Origin: Fragilaria crotonensis
Taxonomy: Eukaryota; Bacillariophyta; Fragilariophyceae; Fragilariales; Fragilariaceae
Length of the DNA stretch: 64,000 bases
Direction: 5' to 3'
NCBI GenBank assembly: GCA_022925895.1
Contig: JAKSYS010000305.1
Location: 1 to 64,000 of the forward strand
Shown here: positions 46,295 to 53,999 of the stretch, one piece after another
How positions within the stretch are numbered: the first letter of the stretch is position 1
Layout: the number at the start of each line of letters is the position of its first letter
Notes under the pieces: generated by a model
What the model saw: the letters and a program-made list of their open reading frames with translations, nothing else
Database searches by the model: none
Told to the model about the DNA's origin: nothing
Program-made: the position numbers and the translations under genes

Positions 46295-48703
46295 AGTTGA
46301 GTGCGAGTCTTGAAATCCTTCTTATGCTTAACTCCTACACCTTTGGATGTTTTCCCGGAGCAATTCTCTATCGTGAAGTGGAGAACGTTTGCCCTTTCTT
46401 GTCGGGTTGTAAGTTGTAATGTTGTAATCAATCCCTCGAAGGCCGACACTTCACGAGTGAAACGAACTCGTACACTGTGATGCAGAGACTGGGAGCGACT
46501 CCGTAGTTTCTATCGTAGCCGTACTTGCATCTTGCATCAGGGGCATTTTTACAGTGTACTCCGAGACTCCGAGTACTACAGTACTACCGGTAGAGTACAT
46601 GGTTTGTACTTTGTACTTCGTACTTTGTATAAAAAAGTACAATACTGTCATCTCGAAGTACTCTACTCTACTAGAGTGTACTCGGAGTATGTAATAGGCG
46701 ACAGGCGGTACAAGTATGGCTGGTTTCATCCTGAGCCTGCATATCGTTGAATCACGTAGACTCAGTAATAAAAAAATTTAGTTGAAGCCAACTTCCACGG
46801 CTTTTTGCTCATCAGAACAGAAGCAACAGCAGCATTGAACCACACCGAGGGGACCTCTGTCTCATTGGTGTGTTCTTACGAGAACGCATTGCAGGAATGA
46901 ATTCATGTACTAAGAGAGCCCATCGACATCGATAGCAGTCGGGTGGGTCTTACTAGTGGTGATATGCCCGGCTATCACCGTTCCATACGTGGTATCAAGT
47001 GGTTGTGGCATCATATCCTTCCTTGTTCTTGCTCATGCCGTTGCAAAGAGAGAAGTTCACCGATGATTCCTACAACTTAGACTCGATCGTTCAAATGGAC
47101 TAGTCTGAGCGTCGGTATTTGTTCCTCATCCTGGCGGCAAACCGCAACGAAGAAGTACTAGTTTGATTTGTATCTTAGGTGGTATCCCTGGGAAGGATGT
47201 GTCGGCTTCAACAATAACAATCAAATCAGCTCCATTCATGAATTAGGAAGGCATTCTGTTGAATACGCTTGACCGGTTTGTAAATTCGAAATGAAGATCT
47301 TGTGGAGGAAAAAACGTCCAGCAGAAGAATCGGTCTATGTTGTTGTGCTTGGTGTCATGCGGAAAGTATTCGTCTTTTCCCTTAACACGAAGGCACGAGT
47401 TTAGGATGGAGGCATAAGTTAAAGGATGACAACTGAGCTGATAAAGAATTGGAGGAACAGATCAATCTTCACAGGCATGGTCAGTTTCCAGTGCTTGCTT
47501 CAGAATATCCAATTTGCTCACGCTGGTGCAATTACATTAGCCAAGGATTGACGAGGAATCAGTTTTGGCAGATAGCAGCGCTTCCAACTGAAGCGAATCT
47601 TGTGCCCAAAGAAAGCGCAGGAGGAGCCATTGATACACTGAAAGGTTACCATTTGACGAGAGGGTTTAGCCTATTTTGAAACTGGGTGTGTTGTTATCTG
47701 GATTGATTGTCGGTGCAACAAGATTTGACGGCAAGTCTGGCGGGGTGAAAAGGCACGCTTCTGATTTGACAATGCAGTTCATGGACTTAGCCACAATTTT
47801 GAGACTGATGGTTCTCCTATGTAGTCTAAAGGACGTCATTACTAAACTTACGATCTTAAATGCAAAGCAAATAAAAGATGTGTCACTAGTCTCGGGATTT
47901 GGCTGATTGCCGACAAATCTAGTCACACGTACAGGTTCTTGTTGATGTTCCAATGCCTCAAATCCCAAGTAGTGTCAAGATACTTTCCCAGCTAAGACAT
48001 ATGTAACTGTTACTACGTCGTTGTTGGAACACCATGAGTAGAGATGCTGGTCATGCTGCCTCTAGCGGCGGAATAATGCTGAAGGAGGGACACTCCTGGA
48101 CCTACTATTAACAATTTGAAGGTCATCATTCTAGATATGCCTAGATACAAGACTAGAAAAGGTACCAAATTTAAATCAATCAAAGCACTTAGTTACTGCT
48201 GTTCGCACCCAGAAGTCCTACGTTAACGTCGATAAAGGTTCGTTTGAGATAGACCCCGGAAATATCCCTGTACCTTCTTCATTTTTGCTTAACTGCCGAC
48301 CCTCGCAAGCCAAACAATCTCCTCCAGTCCATAATTAAGCTGAATGCAGCAAAAGGGTCGGCAGTTTCGATGTGGAAGTTGGTCAGGATGTTGTTATTCC
48401 ATCATGGTCGGCAAATTGGTTTTGTGTGTGGGACAAATCGTGTTGTTTGGAAGCGCGAGGATGCCGGACCCGGTGGTAGTACATGACGCCAGCAAAATTT
48501 ATACTGCGCCTACAGACTACAGAGCTTGCACGATATGTAAGAAAACGATGAAACCAGCCATACTCTGTGACATAGTGGGCGGTATGCGCGCGTACTCGAG
48601 TACGCGGGTGTCCACGATTTGCAACAAATATGCCAGCAGAGATCATCTTGTTCTTGGAGTACGCAGTACGCATACATTGTATGCATACATTTATTCCTTT
48701 GTG
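46295..48703. other. Intergenic / unassigned
   Basis: GTAC-rich at 46550-46690, including TACTACCGGTAGAG. Open frames at 47449-47679 and 47676-47906 are short and lack recognisable motifs; they might be shreds of a retroelement but I cannot support this. No gene called. Confidence 0.5.
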
Positions 48704-48718
48704 CCACCGAAGTGGTAT
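48704..48718 (+). repeat. Left attachment-site repeat of the Crypton
   Basis: CCACCGAAGTGGTAT. Its core CCAC-CGAA-GTGG is a perfect 4+4 inverted repeat with CGAA spacer, followed by TTTTCCA on the element side. Confidence 0.75.
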
Positions 48719-49133
48719 TTTCCATTCTGGTCAGTATGTATGTACAGGAGGGGTCTGTAGACCCTTGTCGATACTGTGCTTCTGCTTACAGGATTGTTCA
48801 AGGTTGTCCCAGTTATTTTTGCTACCCTGGTGGCACGTAGGGTGGCAAATTTTTTACGTGAACGGTGCGTTGTTTTGCCACTCGATCCGTGTTTTTGCCA
48901 CTCGAATTAGTCGATCGTCGATTACTGGCCTCCCATGAGAAAAAATGGGTGTGCAGTCTGCATTACACTATGTTGTCAAAGCAGATCAGTGCTGGTTCTG
49001 CAACCCATGTTACAACGTATTCTCATTTTGCCACCCAAAGGACTTGCTGCGACTTTCCAATATTGTTGTTTTGCCACCGAACGATTCTCAATTAATACTT
49101 CTATACATTCAAGTATCTATTACGTTGTCTTTC

Positions 49134-51144
49134 ATGCCGCCTCCTTGTTATCTTCGCACTAAGAAAGAAAAGATCTACTATCGCTACCTTGTTTGCTTCA
49201 TGACCTTTAAGGACAACACGGATTACGACAAGGATTCTAATATTGTTGAATTCACACAAGAACAACTTCTAGCAATCACTCCGGATGACTTGAAGCGATG
49301 GATGTGTGTGACAGCATACGGAGGGCCGATCCAGGTCCGACGATCGGCCAACCCATGCACGATCAGTTTCCTTGAAAATGCAAAGAAGGCAATATCTTTC
49401 TTCATGCCGAGAAAACAGCCGTGGGATGATCCAAGCATGGTTGGAAATCCAACAAGATCTATTGCAGTTAATGGTTTGATTCGAAGTATTCGGAGGCATG
49501 AGGTAAGGGGCGAGGGAGTACCAAGCAGTGCTAAACGAGCTGTAACAAAAGCAGAGTTCGAGCAGGCCATGAACCAACTCAACTCATTTGATGACATCCA
49601 CCGAAAGTACATGATTCCAGCGGCTTGTAAATTCCAATTTGCTATGATTGGGCGTGTTGATGATGTGTGCCATTTTAAGGAGGTTGATTTGAATGTCAAT
49701 CCCCTTCTTCCCTCATCCAGTCTGGTCGCTCGTATCCGCTGGTCAAAGAATGTAATGGAAGAACGCAACTCCCCAAGACAGATGATATTTGGAAGCATGG
49801 ACACTTCTTCTTTCACTCGGCATCTACCTGGAGGTATGGTGTGAAGCTGGGGATGGTCTTGGAAGTCCATACCTGTTTGGTCGTAGCGATGATCCAGACA
49901 GAAACAAAGCATTTATAGCCAACAAGTTGAAGCGCCACATTTGGGATGCAACCAACGATGCGGGTAACTCAATGTTGGAAGCGAGCAATCTACTCGGGAC
50001 ACACAGTTTACGAAAGTTCTCAACATCGTACGCAATGCGGAATGGTTGTCCGAAAGATTATGTTGCAGCTCGAGGCCGCTGGAGGAAGAAACAGGTTGTA
50101 GATCGTTACATCGACATCGAACTTCCTTACCCAGATGCAAAGGTGGCATCGGTTCTTGCAGTTGGAGGGCCCATGAAATATGTTGTGAAAAACGGCAGCG
50201 GTGTTCTGGACAATTGGTTGTTGACCCAAGTAGTGCCTCACTTGTCTCGATCGGTGACCTTGAGTCAGCAAGTTGCTTTAGTGTTGGCTCCACCCGTCCT
50301 TTGGGCTGCATTTGAAGAATCGATGGAACTCTACATGCCAGTTAACCTTAGGAATCGCATTCAAGCTGCCTACAATGCACTTGAGAATCGATTGCCTGTG
50401 GGACAGAATCCTGTTCAGCGGATTCCGATTATTGTGACTGGCCATGACGACCAGGTTTTAATCACAGAGGTCTTCCCCGAAGAGGACGTTGATCGCCTTA
50501 ATGGACGAGTTAGGAACTTAGCAACAAATATTGGGGGAGGCGGTGGTCGTGACGACTTGTTGAGAGCAGTGCATGCTCAGGTTGGCATCCAGAGGCGCGA
50601 AGGGCATGCCAGGGGCGAAGCACTCATAGGAAGGCTTGATCGCCTCAGTGAATACGTTTCACAGATGGATCAACGGCACACCCAACAAATGAACACCCTT
50701 CGTCGATCTGTCCATCGGGTTGCACTTCAACCTGTGCAACGTCCTCGTGTTGATGAGGATGGTGGGTTTGATGGAGGACAGCAGGATGCAGGAGAGGCAA
50801 ATGCAAGGGAGAATGCGACATTGATTAAAAACCCGAGGTCACTCCACCTGCTCTGGCAAGAATACGAATTTGGTATCGGAGGGCGAAAGCCTGCCAAAAA
50901 TTTCAATGCCATTGAGCGGGGTAGGGTGAAATATGCCTACTACCGACGAAAGATTGCATGGGAAATGATTGCAGGGCTTGTTCGTGGAGGTCACACAGCC
51001 CAAGTTGCAATCGACATGATTTACGAAATCTATGGTGCATCAACTGGGGTGACAACAATTCTAAGAACAATGCGACACGACATGGCAGCTGGACGAGTGC
51101 ATGCATCCCAGTCTTTGTGTCTAGATGTAGAGTTTGCAAATTAG
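49134..51144 (+). pseudogene. Crypton tyrosine recombinase with GCR1_C domain, one frame break
   Basis: ATG 49134 (the frame is open further upstream). N-terminal SAM-like core-binding part: EFTQEQLLAITPDDLKRWMC, FFMPRKQPWDD. Catalytic domain: Arg in FAMIGRVDDVCHFKEVDL, basic strand LVARIRWSKNV, then H-x-x-R in LLGTHSLRKFSTSYAMR, RGRWRKKQVVDRYID with the Trp and the nucleophile Tyr. The C-terminal ~85 residues match GCR1_C: SLHLLWQEYEFGIGGRKPAK, FNAIERGRVKYAYYRRKIAW. Around 49790-49810 the protein passes from the frame ending MDTSSF to the next (+1), starting SLGIYLEVWCEAGDG. No GT-AG pair fits well, so it is a frameshift. Everything else is open, so this is a recently disabled copy or an assembly indel. 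Function: site-specific integration and excision. Confidence 0.85.
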
Positions 51145-52590
51145 AGGCTGTCACAACAAGCATAGCAAAATGAATGCGATTAAATTTACTTCATGTTATT
51201 GGTCTAGATGCTGTTGCATCACTGTTGAGGACGAGTCATACTTGATTTCTGATACTCACTAGTCAATGCTGAGACTTGCATGATCACAAGGCGACAGTAT
51301 TGTGTAGGAACCACCAGATCAGCAGTTCCCAGTGCCTGAGACAACAGTGAGCTACTAATCACAAGTTGCAAATCATTGGACATGAGGTGCAAAATGGGAG
51401 CGTGATTTGTCTCTCGCACCTCAATCATATTGGCATCTACTACTAGGGCAATGTCTAGACGCAGCAGCCAGCCAGCATCAGTTCCAAGAATTTGTCATTG
51501 CACCATCCGGTTCTGATTTCGCACAGTGTCTGCCTTGGATTGTGTATTGCATGTCCACATCGAATAATGCAAGGATGTTTATGTGTGATATGGCTGCGGT
51601 TCGTAAGGCTCAAGAACTGAGTAGACACTGCGAGACTTAATGTGCACATTCGATGTTTTAATGCGACCACCACCGCGGTGTAATGAAAAATAATGTGTTC
51701 GGACATCATAAATTCTTGTGCTCAATTTGGACTGGTTACTGTGAGAGTGCGAGACCGTGAAAGTGTGAGAAATAAGCCAGCATGGCAAGACAAGCACAAT
51801 TAAGAATGCTTCGACCAATATTCGAACTTCATGTACCAACAATTGTACCAACACTTGTACCAACAATTGTACCAACAATTAATGAGGAGTAGTACTCCAA
51901 CACTCCGAGTACTCACCAATCTGATCTGGTGGCTGGTGGTCCAAGGAAAGCATCAAAAACTTCGATTCCCTGGATCACGTCTGCATCATCTTCCGGAAAT
52001 TTAAGCTTTTAACAGCAGTACTTCGAGTACTGCTACGGGTTGTCATCGTAAAACAGCGGATGCCTGTTGATGCACACGTTCTCAAAGAGATGAATAATGC
52101 CAGTCTCTCGTATATGTCGGTGTGAAGGAGGTCTTCGCGGACATGTACAATGTACAATAAAAGATTTTGTGGGCCAAACTTGACTTGGCAGCCATGAATG
52201 ATACATGTACATGCTCGGAGCTCTGAGTATGCTCCGAGTCTTCGAGTACACCTACGCAAGGCCGTAGCCAGCACGCGGAGTACGAGTACTTGTGGAATGG
52301 TTTCCCGCGTTTGCTTTTACGTGTACGACGTATGGTAGTAGAGAATGGCTTTGTGCGTTTGTTGTTTGTTGCTGTTGCTCCAACGCGCACCCCAAAATCA
52401 AAAATTACTGTCAGACAAGGAAGTGACTAGTAACGTACACTTCGTACTTAATTGTACATCATGTACATTTAATAGTAGGTCTCCTCGGTGGCAAAAATCT
52501 GAGCACAAAATGAAGATACTGGCACAATTACTGGTTCGTCCCTGCTCCATTATGTGTTTTTCAGTGTACTAGAGTATTATCTGGAAAATA
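51145..52590. other. Non-coding 3' part of the Crypton
   Basis: About 1.45 kb without a supported gene. Holds four 12-bp units GTACCAACAATT/GTACCAACACTT at 51833-51880 and GTAC words at 51900-52270. Confidence 0.55.
51833..51880. repeat. 12-bp tandem repeat, four units
   Basis: GTACCAACAATT three times and GTACCAACACTT once, head to tail. Confidence 0.9.
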
Positions 52591-52605
52591 CCACCGAAGT
52601 GGTAT
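52591..52605 (+). repeat. Right attachment-site repeat of the Crypton
   Basis: Second copy of CCACCGAAGTGGTAT, preceded by TGGAAAATA on the element side and followed by AAATGC in the host. Confidence 0.75.
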
Positions 52606-53999
52606 AAATGCATAGATTCTTGAAGAGGCGAGAAAATTAATACGGTAGTACTGTATAATATGTGGAAGGTAGATTTGTGTAGCTAGTACAGTACCGGGAT
52701 CGGAATGATATCAAAATGCAACGTACGCGCATGCAGAATTGGATATTCTGATCCCAATTTGCTTCAATTTGGCACTGGCGTCACTCGTACCATCCGTAGG
52801 ATGTGTACCAAAAAGAGTAACAAGTACCGTCGATACTACTTGGAGTATAATTGATGATACGTTGGTGCCGCGAAACCTCAAAATTGCCATGAGAGGTCAG
52901 AGCGTACGATCTTTGGCAGTTTAATGCTGTGATAGCTACTGTGCATGATTCACGCCACAGCGTCAGCAAACGCAGCAGAGGTCTGGTACATTTGCGGAAT
53001 GTGGGTCTAGAGGAGTGATGGATTTCTTGCATTTTTGACCGAAAGCGATCTTCGGCTTCCAGCTGTTGTCCCACAAGGTGGTCCAGAATCATTCGATATG
53101 ATATGCGGTAGAGAGTGACGAGCGCAATTTTGAGGTTTGTGATCAAATACTATTTTGAACTCTGATTTTCTTCATTCCTCAGGGACGGGTGGTCTATTGC
53201 CAGAAAAGCTACGATCCCGACTACTGGCTTGCCTGCCTGAACCACATTTACATGCTGCTGTTTGATGGTTACTACCTGCTGCTCTGGGCAACCTCTACTA
53301 CTACTATAACATGGGAAGTGCCGGGTACAACTTGACTTGTTGGGGATCACCGAAATTGTTCGCCAAAGATGGCTTTCATTATAAATGCTGGTGAGTTCGA
53401 AGCTTGCTACCTTGTACTTGTTTGCGAGGACGGGTCATAAGCACTTGCAATGCTCAAGGATGGGAACGAAGTCGAAAGGGTGTGTTGTCGACACGATTGG
53501 AGTCTTGAGTTGCGGTCCCGATCGTTTCTTTTCATTGGATGGAGAAGACTGCCATTGTCGCATATTTGTTGAGGCGCTATACGAGTCTCCCTACTGTCCT
53601 CAACTTGCCAGGGCAGAGATCCCAGAGGGCAATCAACGTGATCTACAGTCGGAACTATGATCCACAGGCAAATATGACTGGCATTATAAAAAGGCTTTAG
53701 CTCTTCAGATTGAATTGTCTACAATGTTTAAGTTGATAAGATCTGAAGGGTTTGTTCGGACTTGATCGTTTTCCCCCTTTCCGCGACATGTCATGGGAGC
53801 TTGGAGTACAGATGTGATAACTGTACGTAGTCTCTTAGTATGGTTTTCACATACGTTAGCCTTCACGTTGGACGCCGTATTCGGTGGTATGCTTTGATGC
53901 ATGAAATCCGGATACATTCGTAGTACCAGGTCTATTGTGCTATTGTCTATTATTTTTTATTTTACGTGTCTAAACAGATGTTCTCGCGGATCATACAGA
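52606..53999. other. Intergenic / unassigned
   Basis: Scattered short frames (52739-52924, 53385-53660) without family features. The stretch 53160-53660 has coding-like composition in pieces but breaks repeatedly; it may be a very old gene relic. CATACAGA at 53992-53999 is the target duplication of the next element. Confidence 0.45.

Follow-up and report, generated by a model that had tools for sequence, protein, structure and literature searches.

Crypton-type elements in the diatom Fragilaria crotonensis: ends, targets and a proposed attachment site from the comparison of nine families

Are two exact copies of a short sequence on either side of a recombinase gene the two ends of one mobile element, and if not, where does such an element begin, end and insert? 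The question is raised by contig JAKSYS010000305.1 of the diatom Fragilaria crotonensis (assembly GCA_022925895.1), whose first 64,000 nucleotides, read on the forward strand, make up the window analysed here. In it the 15-mer CCACCGAAGTGGTAT occurs exactly at 48704-48718 and at 52591-52605, as an earlier note on this DNA had claimed, and a tyrosine-recombinase-like coding region does lie between the two. The note took the pair for the borders of one Crypton. Judging from aligned copies throughout the genome, the pair is instead one mark that two adjacent elements each have near their left end. These copies point to an attachment site of a different kind, and the model as a whole is probably correct: a right end reading R1-N25-TAC-NNNC-repeat, a left end reading repeat-N14-L1, where R1 and L1 are half-sites and the repeat is three bases long, and a circle that would insert into TAC-N4-(ACA or GTA)-GTA.

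The exact pair in the window is not a product of chance, and no third match to CCACCGAAGTGGTAT is found there at up to three mismatches (shuffled sequences average 1.09 such matches). In the genome that was searched (62.1 Mb in 881 contigs) there are 50 exact copies of the 15-mer, all of which were read together with their flanks. Every one of them lies just inside the left end of an element belonging to one of three families, here called A (16 copies), B (11) and C (23). The trinucleotide ACA or GTA stands exactly 14 bp upstream of the 15-mer in 43 of these copies; of the seven exceptions, five are C copies in which the distance is shorter by one base, one is an A copy reading ACC, and one is a B copy that carries an insertion. 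Within a family about 17 bases to the left of the 15-mer are still common before the flanks become unrelated, and to its right the three families diverge from one another at once. Thirteen other places align with the window from query base 1, that is from 14 bp before the left 15-mer, and their flanks are unrelated only before 48687. The DNA around 52591 aligns with other left ends of family B. The left 15-mer thus belongs to an A element and the right one to the left end of a B element, and they do not border a single element. Other copies with ends elsewhere had been named beforehand as the finding that would speak against the 15-bp repeat as attachment site, and ends elsewhere are what the aligned copies have. 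The palindromic circle junction drawn in the earlier note fares no better: TGGAAAATACCAC and GTGGTATTTTCCA are both present and would form it if joined, but the result would be the left end of A joined to the left end of B, not the two ends of one element, and this junction occurs in none of the 50 copies. End-to-end junctions do exist, as head-to-tail arrays. The earlier observation was thus confirmed in part, and its interpretation is partly supported.

Junctions between a right end and the left end that follows were read from the head-to-tail arrays and from aligned copies, and they follow one scheme, R1-N25-TAC-NNNC-DR-N14-L1-L2, where DR is the 3-bp direct repeat. Written out, the typical junction is GGTKG-N25-TAC-NNNC-(ACA/GTA)-N14-CMACC, usually followed by an inverted GTKG, and it is common to nine families (Table 1). 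The inverted half-site L2 (GTGG or GTTG) stands 4 bp after L1 in most of them. The spacing was also searched for genome-wide, allowing gaps from 13 to 37. From GGTGG to TAC the gap was 25 in 35 of 50 matches (26 matches in all in the reversed control), and from GGTTG it was 25 in 29 of 56, with 13 more at a gap of 13 (reversed control 32 in all); both searches required the C in N4 and GTA behind the repeat, and so are silent on these two features. The 13 matches at the shorter gap arise because a second half-site stands 12 bp inside R1 in families G and A2 (GGTTG; L020, L079). This second site is AGTGG in C and ATTG-like in D and E, and it is not seen in A, B, F or H. The GGTTG matches listed show A2 right ends at a gap of 13 only, although the gap of 25 is present too. 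At the left end, a search for CAACN4GTTG with the gap free between 4 and 30 placed 26 of the 100 matches listed at a gap of 14; there were 102 matches in all against 195 in the control, so only the gap distribution was used. The corresponding search with CCACN4GTGG gave 123 matches against 112 in the reversed control, with matches overlapping on both strands, and was not used.

The half-sites at the two ends change together. Families A, B, C and D, with CCACC or CCACT at the left, have (G/A)GTGG at the right, and families A2, E, F, G and H, with CAACC or CGACC at the left (the latter also found in F), have (G/A)GTTG. In a tree of the recombinases (12 rows, this genome's families only, with the half-site label of row F2_L064 taken from the 97% identical L065), A and A2 (99/98) and D and H (95/97) are sister pairs, and the members of each pair differ at both ends together; B and B2 are likewise sisters (100/99) with different left half-sites. 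The right end of A2 was retrieved when the rule was already in place, and one of four loose matches reads GGTTG-N25-TAC-GTGC-ACA followed by GTA. This pattern bears on two other explanations. The CCACC/GTGG motif could be an operator or promoter element through which a GCR1_C-like domain or a host factor controls the recombinase, its position at the end being incidental; the motif does precede the recombinase gene, with a cluster of similar TTTTGCCAC motifs deeper in the element. We consider this unlikely, for the same distance is kept in non-coding elements such as the B element of the window, and at the right end the same half-site recurs, usually 25 bp before TAC, and changes with L1, neither of which regulation needs. 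Slightly less probable still is that the palindrome works as a hairpin in single-stranded form, like integron attC, circularisation being of the single-strand or copy-out type. Arms of 7 bp in families B and E would suit a hairpin, as would a right N4 that comes from the element, which is expected if only one strand is exchanged. However, the pairing of L1 with L2 is incomplete in A2, B2, G and most of F, and yet L1 and R1 agree in A2 and G; since L1 there matches R1 but not fully L2, half-sites bound by a protein are the better reading.

With tandem and duplicate flanks removed (left from 79 to 59 to 55, right from 47 to 28), the targets of these elements favour TAC-N7-GTA. TAC is found at -7 to -5 in 36 of the 55 non-redundant left flanks and TAT in 9 more (mean 2.3 and highest 7 at 50 control offsets), and GTA at +1 to +3 in 19 of the 28 right flanks (mean 1.15 and highest 4 at later offsets). 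The 28 omit family E (GTA in L062, L074 and L076, GTT in L069) as well as H and A2 (GTA). The two flanks of 21 elements were also joined and the joins searched for in the genome, with 40 candidates scored for each, so that lack of a match does not mean absence; 9 have a match across the join and 6 of the joins are clean, with a single repeat. The clean empty sites belong to the D element L078 (183/183 bases identical), the E element L076 (with a 2-bp gap just right of the join), the A elements L014 (L083), L002 and L017 (the last with a repeat-length change beside the join) and the F element L065 (with a 9-bp gap upstream). At the join they read TAC, TAT or ACC, then N4, then ACA or GTA, and the sequence CCAC-CGAA-GTGG, which had been predicted as the empty target, is not there. 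They also place the exchange at the 3-bp repeat, not at the 4-bp spacer of the palindrome. Three loci related to filled sites (L087, L089 and L090) are without a few bases at the join, and could be excision scars or just diverged alleles.

The four bases on either side of the element have different sources. In the clean empty sites the left N4 is the target's own. The right N4 is fixed by family, as counted over pattern-fitting right ends, array junctions included: ATTC in B (9), TATC in C (10), TTTC in D (2), GTTC in E (3), ATCC in F (8), GGGC in G (4), GTGC in A2 (1) and TTTC in H (1), with two forms, CGGC (9) and TGGC (5), in A. On the element side N4 ends in C in all nine families, and in 49 of the 55 flanks the target has T (34) or A (15) at that place. 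A left N4 taken from the target and a right N4 that stays with the element together point to exchange at the 3-bp repeat, and as the right N4 is family-fixed, the left N4 is apparently not passed on. Together with the model of the ends, an exchange at this place would make the 15-mer a putative arm-type binding site and not the crossover. That the empty site has the 3-bp repeat once would also fit a 3-bp target-site duplication by a DDE transposase, the tyrosine recombinase being a passenger. This we regard as very improbable: A, A2, B, B2, C, D, E, F and H all have recombinase genes (none was found in G), the scan of eight proteins reported no transposase family, and insertion is into TAC-N7-GTA, with N4 fixed on the element side. 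As for the 15-bp direct repeat as attachment site with a 13-4-13 palindrome as recombinase core site, two exact 15-mers and a possible palindrome exist, but other copies end elsewhere, the right 15-mer is in B, the junction was found in none of 50 copies, the clean empty sites are without the motif, and the idea must count as refuted.

Head-to-tail arrays were found on C449, C719, C548, C877, C386, C99, C205, C468, C680, C317 and C37. Elements of different families can also adjoin in this way. A C element stands directly at an apparent A right end near 379 of L028 (C250), and on the reverse strand of L016 (C364), near 807, an A element directly adjoins a G right end, so by these junctions the right ends of one family seem to be used as targets by another. 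With GTA behind it, a right end again reads TAC-N4-repeat-GTA, so later circles could insert there, which would explain the arrays without homologous recombination. In the proposed mechanism the element would circularise, with both ends joined across the 3-bp repeat, and the circle would then insert into a host site TAC-N4-(ACA or GTA)-GTA. The core of the recombinase would bind the TAC...GTA arms, and another domain of the same protein, either GCR1_C or the N-terminal part, would bind L1, L2 and R1 as arm-type sites that align the ends. Array junctions and empty sites are consistent with movement as an excised circle. The ends, the typical spacing, the target preference, the exact empty sites and the sources of the left and right N4 are read from the sequences directly.

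Several observations weigh against this model. Because copies within a family are related, it is the nine families that carry the weight, and a single copy each stands behind the left end of D and behind the two ends of A2 and of H. Among the listed copies there is one exception to the paired change of half-sites, a C-like right end with GGTTG on C345, and family F pairs CGACC with GGTTG. L1 and L2 pair imperfectly in A2, B2, G, D and most of F. The right gap varies between 23 and 31 overall (23 to 26 in C, 26 in H, about 30 in two F copies, 27 in one B and 26 in one G copy), the right end of the A copy L017 is without TAC, and that of the C copy L049 is shortened, with part of TATC gone. The left site is absent in the D copy L068, whose left end was not found, and the right end of B2 (L075) was searched for and not found; nor did a pattern search find left ends for L070, L071 and L077. 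Family A fits TAC poorly: of its 14 left flanks 3 have TAC and 5 of the remaining 11 have TAT, and the window's own A element is flanked by TAT and ATT. Only 9 of the 21 joins had a match, and three of these (A_L010, the A_L003 array and E_L062) have indels at the join and were not used. A more distant relative of A_L014 (L084) differs in the left N4 (GATT vs GACT). Finally, a fixed right N4 could reflect selection instead of the point of exchange, and the data do not separate the two.

The protein of element A in the window has the motifs GRVDD, THSLRK and DRY, which we take to hold the R-H-R-Y residues of a tyrosine recombinase. H-R and Y are invariant in seven aligned rows, and R-DD is kept in the six rows that reach that far. 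The Pfam family Phage_integrase matched below threshold only (E 0.15 in the window, 0.2 and 0.081 in relatives). GCR1_C is above its Pfam cut-off (23 bits) in three of six relatives (L064 30.2, L066 28.4, L067 23.6) and below it in L059 (22.8), L018 (21.5) and L001 (16.8), as it is in the window copy (E 0.003, 18.3 bits). Neither a reverse transcriptase, as in DIRS, Ngaro and PAT, nor DUF3435 was matched in the eight proteins scanned (two from the window and the six relatives). The termini are short 3-bp direct repeats, ACA or GTA, with no long terminal inverted repeat or long terminal repeat, and the span is 1.3 to 7.0 kb among 22 elements measured, arrays included. By this domain content and these termini the elements are Crypton-type, as the earlier note had held, and recombinase plus GCR1_C is the CryptonF domain set. 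Family H was bounded as one 5.17-kb stretch with two recombinase-like regions (L066, C764:339200-345300), perhaps two merged elements. Starships are large cargo-carrying elements with a 5' captain recombinase (DUF3435), and this class was set aside for elements of 1.3 to 7.0 kb without a DUF3435 match in those eight proteins. Diatom elements have been described as CryptonS, a class without GCR1_C whose members in the majority share TATGG termini (Kojima and Jurka 2011, PMC3212892). The class CryptonS was rejected here, with GCR1_C present and ACA or GTA at the termini. A scan of viral contigs with the recombinase alignment gave 32 stretches that matched the pattern, none of them confirmed, and a profile search of PDB sequences gave 0 matches. 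That the host is a diatom, as had been supposed, agrees with a genome resembling that of a fucoxanthin-type alga: there are 61 light-harvesting matches when each exon is counted separately, and for one of these the closest is FCPI-7 of entry 6ly5, presumably from a diatom.

How does such a site compare with known systems? The attP site of phage lambda has a core and arm-type sites at fixed distances on both sides, and bacterial host factors and an excisionase act on it. The present ends, on the proposed model, are similar in having a core plus arm-type sites and differ in that no host factor or excisionase was identified. CryptonF elements share the recombinase with a C-terminal GCR1_C, the absence of long terminal repeats and the short direct repeats, which there are 4 or 6 bp long and are thought to be the exchange site, a circular intermediate having been proposed (PMC3212892). 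Here the repeats are 3 bp long, with inner half-sites at typical spacing and a TAC-N7-GTA target, and the accessible text describes no inner sites for CryptonF (PMC3212892). Starships, too, are eukaryotic tyrosine-recombinase elements with short direct repeats, and the target of the Hephaestus family, TTAC(N7)A, has the same TAC-N7 geometry; they are, however, about 20-700 kb long with cargo and terminal inverted repeats, and paired half-sites at fixed spacing are not described in the part of the source available (PMC12153272). In bacteria, Tn916/Tn1549 and CTnDOT likewise need very little homology at insertion (a single base pair for Tn916-like circles, 2 nt for CTnDOT), with 5-7 nt between the joined ends and TA pairs flanking a 6-bp variable target region, but the bases between the joined ends there vary by circle whereas here the right N4 is family-fixed (PMC5871717). 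A similar case is Vibrio SE-6945, a strand-biased circularizing integrative element with a tyrosine recombinase in which one side's spacer enters the circle; it is bacterial, and 6 bp from attL tend to reach attR, whereas here the right N4 stays at the right (PMC9345347).

A more far-reaching reading can be offered tentatively, at somewhat less than even chances. The site would be lambda-like, with a 3-bp-exchange core in a TAC-N7-GTA target and arm-type half-sites L1, L2 and R1 bound by a second domain. The specificity of that domain would have switched repeatedly, from CCACC to CAACC, and the sites at the two ends would have followed. TAC-N7, shared with Starship, would then be an old feature common to tyrosine-recombinase transposons of eukaryotes, and a left N4 that is never passed on would reflect a one-sided strand exchange unlike that of Tn916. 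Crypton boundaries have been called difficult to characterize, and their exchange sites have been assigned by proposal and analogy (PMC3212892). The nine families of this one genome, with their arrays and exact empty sites, yield a full model of the attachment site, with core, target, exchange point and co-varying half-sites. No comparable model for a Crypton was found in the literature searched, which covers mainly openly accessible work. The model can be tested with short DNA substrates, suggests a route to Crypton ends elsewhere and links the target geometry of Crypton and Starship. In general, the starts, ends and insertion sites of these poorly understood elements become visible when many copies are compared.

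Within the window, the boundaries of element A are backed by the three other A copies with clean empty sites. A copy on C394 that is 97-99% identical to it has an uninterrupted frame across the entire recombinase, of 841 codons, the first of which lie in the flank. The window's B element has a longest stop-free stretch of 122 codons. It is 97-98% identical to two tandem copies on C719, and resembles the autonomous B element L056 only in its first 250 and last 101 bases.

Table 1. Features of the window around the two 15-mers, and typical junctions of the nine families
Feature	Position	Strand	Remarks
Target flank TAT GCAT left of element A	48680..48686	+	consensus TAC N4
Family A Crypton-type element	48687..52526	+	3,840 bp including both 3-bp direct repeats; flanks of copies diverge outside these points
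Left direct repeat ACA of element A	48687..48689	+	
CCACC/GTGG subterminal palindrome of A (L1 + L2)	48704..48715	+	14 bp inside the direct repeat; left repeat of the earlier note
Four TTTTGCCAC motifs in A	48873..49077 (48873, 48893, 49026, 49069)	+	L1-like
A recombinase, first part	48945..49844	+	Arg motif GRVDD; frame broken relative to the C394 copy
A recombinase, second part	49789..51144	+	THSLRK, RGRWR, DRY and GCR1_C-like C-terminal domain
Half-site R1 GGTGG of element A	52487..52491	+	25 bp before TAC
Right end of element A, TAC TGGC ACA	52517..52526	+	where other A copies end; not 52605
Host DNA between A and B, 47 bp	52527..52573	.	final letters are the B target flank TAC TAGA
Family B non-coding (non-autonomous) element	52574..53922	+	1,349 bp including both GTA repeats
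CCACC/GTGG palindrome (L1, L2) in left end of B	52591..52602	+	right repeat of the earlier note
Half-site R1 GGTGG of element B	53883..53887	+	
Right end of element B, TAC ATTC GTA	53913..53922	+	followed by target GTA at 53923
Family A junction			GGTGG...TAC CGGC ACA...CCACCGAAGTGG
Family B junction			GGTGG...TAC ATTC GTA...CCACCGAAGTGG
Family C junction			GGTGG...TAC TATC ACA...CCACCGAAGTGG
Family D junction			GGTGG...TAC TTTC ACA...CCACTACAATGG
Family E junction			AGTTG...TAC GTTC GTA...CAACCAACGTTG
Family F junction			GGTTG...TAC ATCC GTA...CGACCGAGGTAG or CAACCGGTGTTG
Family G junction			GGTTG...TAC GGGC ACA...CAACCGAAGTAG
Family H junction			GGTTG...TAC TTTC ACA...CAACCGATGTTG
Family A2 junction			GGTTG...TAC GTGC ACA...CAACCGAAGTGG

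Two minor observations can be added. Right ends of a further family, reading TAC ATTC ATA GTA, are present at C476:41024-41066 and C877:57586-57635, and the 3-bp repeat may thus also be ATA. In the window, five of the six occurrences of TTTTGCCAC lie inside element A, and their cluster behind its left end may represent further binding sites.

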